Shown: positions 438 through 34,349 of the stretch, piece after piece
Layout of the letters: each line of letters begins with the position of its first letter
How positions within the stretch are numbered: position 1 is the stretch's first letter
Assembly (NCBI GenBank): GCA_015152455.1
Contig: SUTY01000010.1
Coordinates: 1 to 34,349 of the forward strand
Origin: Cyanobacteria bacterium SIG32
GTDB lineage: Bacteria; Cyanobacteriota; Vampirovibrionia; Gastranaerophilales; Gastranaerophilaceae
DNA length: 34,349 bases
Direction: 5' to 3'
Notes under the pieces: model-generated
What the model was told of the DNA's origin: nothing
What the model saw: the letters and a program-made list of their open reading frames with translations, nothing else
The model's database searches: none
Program-made: the position numbers and the translations under genes

Positions 438-507
438 TGTTAACTTTTGTAACAAACCTGAAAGCATGTGAAATTGGGCATTTTGGCATGTTTTTATATA
501 TGTAAGA
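438..507 (+). promoter_or_regulatory. Shared-architecture promoter of the 564-aa gene (copy A)
   Basis: Half-sites TGTTAAC (438) and TGTAAC (448) lie 10 bp apart and start 49 and 39 bp upstream of the core CATGTTTTTATATATGTAAG (487-506). The word GAAATTGG sits 17 bp upstream of the core. The same elements with identical spacing precede the 130-aa gene at 10242. The half-sites look like a two-subunit activator site and the core contains an AT-rich -10-like TATATAT. The start codon is 43 bp downstream of the core's first base. Confidence 0.65.
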
Positions 508-10147: not shown

Positions 10148-10216
10148 TGTTAACAAATGTAACGAAATAAATCATTGCTGAAATTGGTTAATTTTACATG
10201 TTTTTATATATGTAAG
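10148..10216 (+). promoter_or_regulatory. Shared-architecture promoter of the 130-aa gene (copy B)
   Basis: TGTTAAC (10148) and TGTAAC (10158) start 49 and 39 bp upstream of CATGTTTTTATATATGTAAG (10197-10216). GAAATTGG is 17 bp upstream of the core. Every distance equals that in front of the 564-aa gene, and the leaders after the core are also similar (both end in CAGAG-N-AATG). Here the core is itself flanked by TTACAT/ATGTAA. Confidence 0.65.
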
Positions 10217-31369: not shown

Positions 31370-32164
31370 TTAGAACCAATTGCAAGAATCACCTTTGCAA
31401 AGAATACCGTCTAAATCTGTCATAGTTTCTTTTCTTGTCATTTCATAAGTGACAGGTGTGATCGAAATTTTATTATTTCTAACTGCTGCAATATCAGTAT
31501 TTGCAGTAGAAGGTTCACTAATTAATTCACCAGCCATCCAGTAGTAAATTTTGCCTCGAGGGTCAACGCGTTTTTCGTAATTGTCTGTAAACATTTTGCG
31601 CCCAAGTTCTGTGATCGCAACGCCCAAAATATCATCATCATCAAGTGCTGGAACGTTAACGTTTAAAAGCATTTTAGGTGGAAATTTATAGCCTTTTAAT
31701 TTTTCTAATAATGCTGCAATAAATCTTGCAGTATATTTAAAATCTTCGTATTCACAGTGCATACTTGCAAGTGAAACGGCAATACTAGGAACGCCGAGCA
31801 TTGCGCCTTCCATAGCACAACTTACAGTTCCTGAATAAAGGATATCTGATCCAAGGTTTGGACCATGGTTTATGCCTGAGATTACGAAATCAGGTTGTTC
31901 TTCAGGTGCAAGAATTGCGTTAATACCTAGTTTTACACAGTCCCCAGGTGTTCCGTTTGTAACCCAGGTACGTTTTGCACCTGATTTTGATTCTTCAAGT
32001 TCTTCAACTCTTAAAGGTGTGTGTAGAGTTAAAGAGTGTCCTGCGGCACTTCTTTCTCTATCTGGTGCAACAACATATACATTGTGAGTTTTAGAAAGTT
32101 CTTCTGTTAAAGCTCTAATACCATTAGCTGCGATTCCGTCATCATTTGCGATTAAAATATTCAT
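31370..32164 (-). CDS. surE: 5'/3'-nucleotidase SurE
   Basis: SurE is a metal-dependent phosphatase of nucleoside 5'- and 3'-monophosphates. Metal ligands are Asp8-Asp9 in LIANDDGI, Ser39 in VAPDRERSAAGHS, and the Asn of ISGINHGPNLG. YSGTVSCAMEGAMLG and TPGDCVKLGI are further conserved blocks. The length of 264 aa is normal. ATG follows AAGGAGATATTAT and a TATTAT -10 box about 30 bp upstream. It converges with the SPOR gene, two bases between stops. Confidence 0.96.
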   Translation of the reverse strand: MNILIANDDGIAANGIRALTEELSKTHNVYVVAPDRERSAAGHSLTLHTPLRVEELEESKSGAKRTWVTNGTPGDCVKLGINAILAPEEQPDFVISGINHGPNLGSDILYSGTVSCAMEGAMLGVPSIAVSLASMHCEYEDFKYTARFIAALLEKLKGYKFPPKMLLNVNVPALDDDDILGVAITELGRKMFTDNYEKRVDPRGKIYYWMAGELISEPSTANTDIAAVRNNKISITPVTYEMTRKETMTDLDGILCKGDSCNWF

Positions 32165-32319
32165 ATAATATCTCCTTAATATCTATTTATATAATACCCA
32201 TTTTTTCAATAAATACCAACTGCTTCATGTAACTTTATTAAGTTTTGTAAAGAAAACATTTTTTATGTAAAAGATATAGCAATTATATATACTGAAAATT
32301 TTTTATATATATGTAAACA

Positions 32320-32445
32320 CGAGGTACGCTTAAAATTGAGGAATCAGAAGAAATTTTAAGCACACACACTACACTTCACACTATTTACGAGGAATTGACG
32401 AAAGTTTATTCCAAAGGGTCTTAATTATAAGACTCTTTTTTTTAT
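32320..32445 (+). ncRNA. Candidate structured small RNA
   Basis: There is no ORF, but three hairpins lie in a row. P1 pairs GCTTAAAATT (32328-32337) with AATTTTAAGC (32352-32361), 10 perfect base pairs. P2 spans 32391-32412, GGAATTGAC-GAAA-GTTTATTCC, nine positions with one mismatch and a GNRA tetraloop. P3 is a terminator stem (32414-32437) with T8. Between P1 and P2, 32361-32388 is G-free and CA-rich, a likely unpaired segment. An AT-rich promoter-like TTTTTTATATATATGTAA precedes it (32299-32316). No known RNA family is recognised. Strand and boundaries follow from the terminator. Lies between surE (divergent) and a 48-aa gene (convergent). Confidence 0.5.
32414..32443 (+). terminator. Terminator of the candidate sRNA
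   Basis: AAGGGTCTTA/TAAGACTCTT (10 bp, one G-T) with an ATTA loop and T8. No protein gene on the plus strand precedes it within the window's nearest 1 kb, which implies a non-coding transcript. Confidence 0.8.
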
Positions 32446-32468
32446 TCTTTTGTTGTGGCACGTATTTG

Positions 32469-34301: not shown

Positions 34302-34306
34302 AATTT

Positions 34307-34322
34307 TGTAAATAAATGTAAC
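34307..34322 (+). promoter_or_regulatory. Tandem half-sites at the window edge (predicted copy E)
   Basis: TGTAAA (34307) and TGTAAC (34317) lie 10 bp apart on the plus strand. If they belong to the shared promoter, its core should begin at about 34356, seven bases beyond the window, with a gene starting near 34400. Confidence 0.35.
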
Positions 34323-34349
34323 AAATTTCTACGTTTTTGTTAATTTTCC

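Follow-up and report, generated by a model that had tools for sequence, protein, structure and literature searches.

A new small RNA family encoded beside surE in the Gastranaerophilaceae

The gap beside surE in Cyanobacteria bacterium SIG32 (Gastranaerophilales; Gastranaerophilaceae) holds a real small RNA gene that was previously uncatalogued. Its shape and a single-stranded word of 19 letters have been maintained in more than 100 species of a non-photosynthetic, gut-dwelling cyanobacterial relative. This RNA, here called sRNA A, represents a new family whose general kind is already known. Like Yfr1/Yfr10, LhrC or FopS, it most likely acts in trans, and we assign a probability of about two in three to its being a stand-alone regulatory RNA that would base-pair with mRNAs via a G-free single strand. 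The DNA analysed, referred to as the window, is a stretch of 34,349 nucleotides (contig SUTY01000010.1 of assembly GCA_015152455.1). The source genome is a 1.7-Mb, 90% complete assembly, and several congeners are 97-99% complete.

Location and fold of the RNA gene

The intergenic gap comprises 304 bp and is bordered by the start codon of surE (32164, minus strand) and by the stop codon of a small ORF (32469, minus strand). It harbours a compact RNA gene of ~127 nt on the plus strand (32317..32443), which is delineated by covariance-model matches and compensated pairs; its transcription and exact start are predicted from the position of the -10 element and from the conserved ACACGAGG. This unpaired 5' end (32317..32324) is invariant in a 22-sequence alignment and is followed by hairpin 1 (32328..32361), which has a perfect 10-bp stem (GCTTAAAATT/AATTTTAAGC, 32328-32337 paired with 32352-32361) and carries GAGGAAUCA in its loop. 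The adjoining G-free single strand (32361..32388) contains the conserved word CACACUACACUUCACACUA, a putative seed that is near-invariant in 79 aligned sequences in which the stems vary. Hairpin 2 (32391..32412) is formed by the arms GGAAT/ATTCC (32391-32395 with 32408-32412; GGAAU...AUUCC in the RNA), which are also found in the sister RNAs described below, and the gene ends with an intrinsic terminator (32413..32443) consisting of a stem (32413-32438) and a T run up to 32443. All these elements lie on the plus strand. GAGG is present in three copies, with GAGG(A) motifs at the 5' end, in loop 1 and in hairpin 2. The fold of 32318-32443 reaches -28 kcal/mol (z = -5.3), a value that none of 200 shuffles equals.

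A sequence-only reading of the gap had described an AT core, a 10-bp stem, a G-free strand, a second hairpin and a terminator, and all of them were found where it had placed them. The GAAA tetraloop that it proposed does close hairpin 2 in the source genome, but it is a local feature that is not conserved. Likewise, the G-free strand of ~28 nt is present, but its length is ordinary (174 of 2000 shuffles reach a 28-nt run); the exceptional trait of this strand is the conservation of its sequence and not its length by itself.

Compensatory changes and conservation

In a model-based alignment of 79 sequences, which leans towards the structure it was fitted to, 95.5% of the cells are paired and both sides have changed at least once in 20 of the 28 pairs. 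Double-change cells number 355, as opposed to 105 in shuffles, and none of 500 shuffles reaches this number; when the partner is displaced by one to three columns, pairing falls to 39-57%. All three hairpins contribute: double changes are seen in 5 of 10 pairs of hairpin 1 (97.8% of cells paired), in 4 of 6 pairs of hairpin 2 (99.8%) and in 10 of 11 pairs of the terminator. Compensation is also visible by eye, with a U-A to A-U exchange in stem 1 and an entirely rewritten terminator, and two distant orthologues adopt the identical three hairpins when folded independently. A first RNAalifold run on a 22-sequence MAFFT alignment gave a poor result owing to misalignment of hairpins that differ in length; the model-based alignment resolved this.

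The near-fixed parts of the RNA are the unpaired CACACUACACUUCACACUA, ACACGAGG and the GGAAU of hairpin 2. The conserved single-stranded word comprises 19 letters, and its fixity is partly by construction in those loci that were fetched using its core, CACTACACTTCACACTNTT. In a model search independent of the word, it is altered in one orthologue (L021) and otherwise unchanged, and the first DNA search likewise required no exact word.

That DNA search covered 59 genomes and revealed sRNA A in all 15 congeners, one copy being interrupted by a contig end, as well as in numerous further genera of the family. The covariance model across relatives, which the sequence-only reading had suggested as a check, was built from 13 congeneric sequences and run against 241 genomes of the order; 109 genomes from 14 genera match with E <= 2.3e-6 (E-values from a shortened calibration), and all of them belong to the family of the window. 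The proposal of a three-hairpin, regulatory-type RNA of about 125 nt is thus backed both by compensatory change and by conservation. Outside the family, nothing convincing was found among 194 genomes drawn from the phylum (best E 0.013), and no viral or phage copies were found. A scan of genome contigs with CACTACACTTCACACTNTT yielded 89 loci. Most of them carry the name Candidatus Gastranaerophilales or Melainabacteria, and some come from MAGs that bear unspecific or seemingly wrong names. Rfam 15 gave no family above the gathering cut-off over sRNA A in the window or at related loci, a tRNA being the sole match in the scan of the window; relaxed thresholds returned nothing over sRNA A either.

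The locus is syntenic. The divergent surE (31370..32164, minus strand) adjoins sRNA A in 86 of 90 loci; three of the exceptions have too little flanking DNA, and one (L108) is apparently a real relocation. The downstream gene varies between genomes, the commonest being the serine dehydratase pair sdaAB/sdaAA, and in the window sdaAB follows on the same strand from 32745.

Sister RNAs

Many of the weaker model matches correspond to another type of sRNA, which shares the TATAGCAAT promoter and has an ACACGAG motif. In these RNAs the G-free strand (ACACUACCUACUACACACUAACCUUCUACAC) is longer, and the ACGAGGAAUU...AAUUCC hairpin and the terminator are the same; some copies lie in tandem. By using a second covariance model, three sisters were located in the source genome: sister B (contig C95, 8794-8908; 2295-2409 in locus L064), whose conserved part also opens with ACACGAG, sister C (contig C55, 3756-3862; L063) and the weakly matching sister D (contig C87, 4433-4527; L221; E 0.09), which is found again in the genus, its UUUUCUCCUACACACUAACCUUUUACC strand being conserved. 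The second model also finds sRNA A, and the two models, R1 and R2, detect each other's members; congeners have similar sets, with about four siblings per genus genome. The word CUAACCUUYUAC is common to B, C and D, and A carries its own. Judged by their sequences, these are homologous putative sRNA genes that share a module and, in two of them, a promoter element. The sRNA family probably extends into other families of the order.

Two further observations concern the wider set of loci. Tandem copies of type B, each with its own promoter and terminator, are present at L065, L066 and L075. More distant loci that resemble sRNA genes, L026 (G051:C101), L230/L231 (G039), L232 (G026), L233 (G030) and L236 (G020), combine AATATAGCAATTT-type promoters with purine-rich leaders (GAGA/GAGGA) and long CU/CA strands devoid of G.

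The promoter and its relatives

A scan with the sigma-70 consensus found no promoter at sRNA A, and its promoter was recognised through conservation. Three elements on the plus strand are conserved in 83 loci: TTAAGTTTTGTAA (32238..32250), ~80 bp before the RNA start, with the footprint TaT.AA.tttTGTAAcAAa; TATAGCAATTATATATA (32275..32291; about -42 to -26), a promoter or activator element; and the -10-like core TTTTTTATATATATG (32299..32313), which lies in a promoter-like stretch at 32299-32316. Expressed as an upstream footprint, these loci show a TTAA-like N4 TGTAACAAA at about -80, TATAGCAATNNTATATA at about -42 to -26 and TTTTTTATATATATG. The -10-like core has seven matches in the window compared with 0.57 expected. 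Elements similar to TTAAGTTTTGTAA precede the sisters B, C and D, and this element is probably an activator site common to the sister sRNAs.

The sequence-only reading had also suggested a shared promoter and a regulon, which is borne out by two related promoters in the window and by TATAGCAAT being nearly exclusive to sRNA A and a sister. The 1.7-Mb genome contains exactly two copies of TATAGCAATWNTATA, before sRNA A and before sister B (C95), and in 16 genus genomes most matches to this element are the A and B loci, while reversed-pattern controls are near zero. Thus, TATAGCAATWNTATA is nearly confined to these loci, and the two sister RNAs have a near-private promoter element in common. The two related promoters in the window (440-505 and 10150-10215) lack TATAGCAAT and precede protein genes, the ORFs at 530 and 10242. 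They consist of TTAAN4TGTAAC and then GTTTTTATATATGTAAG, the distance from TTAAN4TGTAAC to ATGTTTTTATATATGTAAG being ~48 bp; they probably form one class with the core of the sRNA promoter and provide the basis for the idea of a regulon. In other genomes of the order, similar TATAGCAAT promoters stand before protein genes, whose products look EF-hand-like and CopG-like by eye, and before another candidate sRNA. A further TTTTGTAAATAAATGTAACAAA element follows sdaAA where the window ends (34304-34325).

Comparison with known small RNAs

Yfr1 is 54-69 nt long and has two stem-loops, and its unpaired strand of 16-20 nt between the 5' hairpin and the terminator hairpin contains a perfectly conserved ACUCCUCACAC (PMC2190773, PMC6778093). 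sRNA A resembles Yfr1/Yfr10, which belong to the same GTDB phylum, in having a 5' hairpin, an unpaired C/A/U-rich strand with an ultraconserved word, a 3' terminator hairpin and a sister RNA. By eye and without gaps, ACUCCUCACAC and ACACUUCACAC of sRNA A agree in 9 of 11 letters. However, the invariant ACUCCUCACAC is missing from the window RNA and from the alignment, and sRNA A is ~127 nt long with three hairpins. Its unpaired strand is of a similar kind but longer, the additional hairpin 2 lies between this strand and the terminator, and sRNA A has GAGGA motifs and no Rfam match. Membership in the Yfr1 family was rejected, because both defining features, word and size, differ, and homology is not claimed.

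FopS/GibS of Bacteroides is a multi-member paralogous sRNA family with a shared unpaired seed region and a terminator, and FopS associates with the RRM protein RbpB (PMC11697453). The likeness lies in a paralogous set of sRNAs in gut bacteria. In contrast to sRNA A, FopS has a single-stranded 5' stretch and a terminator without hairpins 1 and 2, sRNA A has no match to the Rfam families, and an RRM protein was undetected in the genus of the window. LhrC1-5 of Listeria are siblings that measure 111-114 nt, have promoters under common regulation and pair at CU-rich sites; Hfq is not needed for their action on lapB (PMC4132741). They are sibling sRNAs of a similar type with shared promoter control, but the LhrC copies are nearly identical and under LisRK, whereas the siblings of sRNA A differ in their words.

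Proposed mechanism and alternative explanations

In the mechanism that we favour, transcription would start near 32317 and stop at 32443, driven by a promoter that appears to require a dedicated activator or sigma factor. Hairpins 1 and 2 and the terminator would keep the G-free strand (32361-32388) open and shield the ends, and the strand would form short duplexes with several mRNAs, most likely close to the mRNA starts, altering their translation or decay. The sisters, with a common 3' module, a partly common promoter and different G-free words, would have their own or partly overlapping targets. We infer the pairing, the targets and the activator. The G-free word is fixed though unpaired, as expected of a seed. 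A point against pairing is that a 19-nt word conserved throughout the family is longer than most seeds, and protein binding would also fit.

The sequence-only reading suggested that the CA-rich segment could pair with ribosome sites. This is possible, but neither a long complementary site in the genus nor an outstanding start region in the window was found. A search of 16 genus genomes for complementary targets of 15 nt with at most one mismatch returned none except the gene itself and one match in a single genome; any pairing would therefore use short seeds. None of the start regions in the window pairs convincingly above shuffled strands (best z -2.3 of 36, mean above zero). For the word shared by B-D, target counts with two mismatches allowed equal those of the reversed-pattern control. 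In several congeners, matches to this word recur where two mRNAs are presumed to begin, one without a recognised product and one sodium:alanine symporter-like by eye, but because the total count equals the control they are rated only as a lead. At L301-L305 and L308-L309, a AAAAGGTTAGTG-type sequence complementary to the B-D word directly follows a -10 box at these presumed 5' ends.

Among the alternatives, the RNA could sequester a protein, with the GAGG(A) motifs or the G-free word titrating an RNA-binding protein in the way that CsrB/RsmZ titrate CsrA. This is in line with the three GAGG copies, with more of them in relatives from other genera (e.g. G026), with the sibling copies and with the fixed unpaired word, which would also suit a protein site. 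We nevertheless consider it unlikely, although a protein other than CsrA could be the partner. CsrA was undetected in all 16 genus genomes, with positive controls, and nearly all of these carry sRNA A; it was found in G020 and G023, two members of the family of the window that lack a strong sRNA A match, and in most sampled genomes belonging to the order's other families. CsrA appears to be lost where sRNA A is well conserved (genus g1), and the GGA of loop 1 is lost in one clade (GAGAAAUCA). Other helpers gave a similar picture: Hfq was absent from the hits in 40 genomes (controls positive) and RRM_1 from those in 16 genus genomes (Synechococcus and Bacteroides controls positive), and the KhpA/B-type domain (PF13083) gave only sub-cut-off matches in reading frames of ~510 and ~245 aa, which by size look like the KH domains of RNase Y and ribosomal S3. 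Hence, help from Hfq is not expected, and the usual sponge and helper explanations built on these proteins are unavailable. Cross-talk, in which sRNA A would mainly pair with or buffer its siblings like Yfr2 with Yfr1, is less probable still. The siblings do share the promoter or the 3' module, and the identical GGAAU/AUUCC arms of A and B could swap between molecules, but such swapping is possible with any shared hairpins and requires no special selection, and by inspection the G-free words of A and B lack mutual complementarity.

That the RNA is a leader, a 3'-UTR piece or an attenuator of a neighbouring gene is very improbable, even though sdaAB lies downstream on the same strand in many loci. 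The strong terminator (32413-32443) has a compensated stem and a U-tract, sRNA A has its own conserved promoter and persists when the downstream gene changes, and surE, being divergent, cannot have it as a leader. The variable downstream gene and the own terminator point to an independent gene. A small-protein gene, for which two TTG codons and possible ribosome-binding GAGG sequences might speak, has next to no probability. The sequence-only reading had noted no plausible gene in the gap. The window RNA has neither ATG nor GTG, 40 of 79 orthologues lack a closed ORF, and the spacing between conserved blocks varies across all three frames. A small ORF was rejected on these grounds, barring non-standard starts. 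A trans-acting, base-pairing sRNA remains our preferred reading.

Conclusions and perspectives

In a literature search limited to open-licence papers, no regulatory RNA from Gastranaerophilales came up. sRNA A is without an Rfam family; a covariance model is now ready for it, and the near-private promoter motif could serve to trap its regulator. More tentatively, and less likely than not in our view, the sister sRNAs might form an order-wide co-regulated network under a promoter class of its own, which would also serve some protein genes. No helper of the Hfq, CsrA, RRM or KhpA type was detected for it; it would either be chaperone-free or rely on a new RNA-binding protein, yet to be discovered, with the ACACGAGG / GGAAU...AUUCC module as its recognition site. 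The siblings keep a common 3' module but change their G-free words, which suggests that they diverge in target choice on one platform for expression and stability. With sRNA A, control by sRNAs can be put to the test in cyanobacterial relatives that are Hfq-free.
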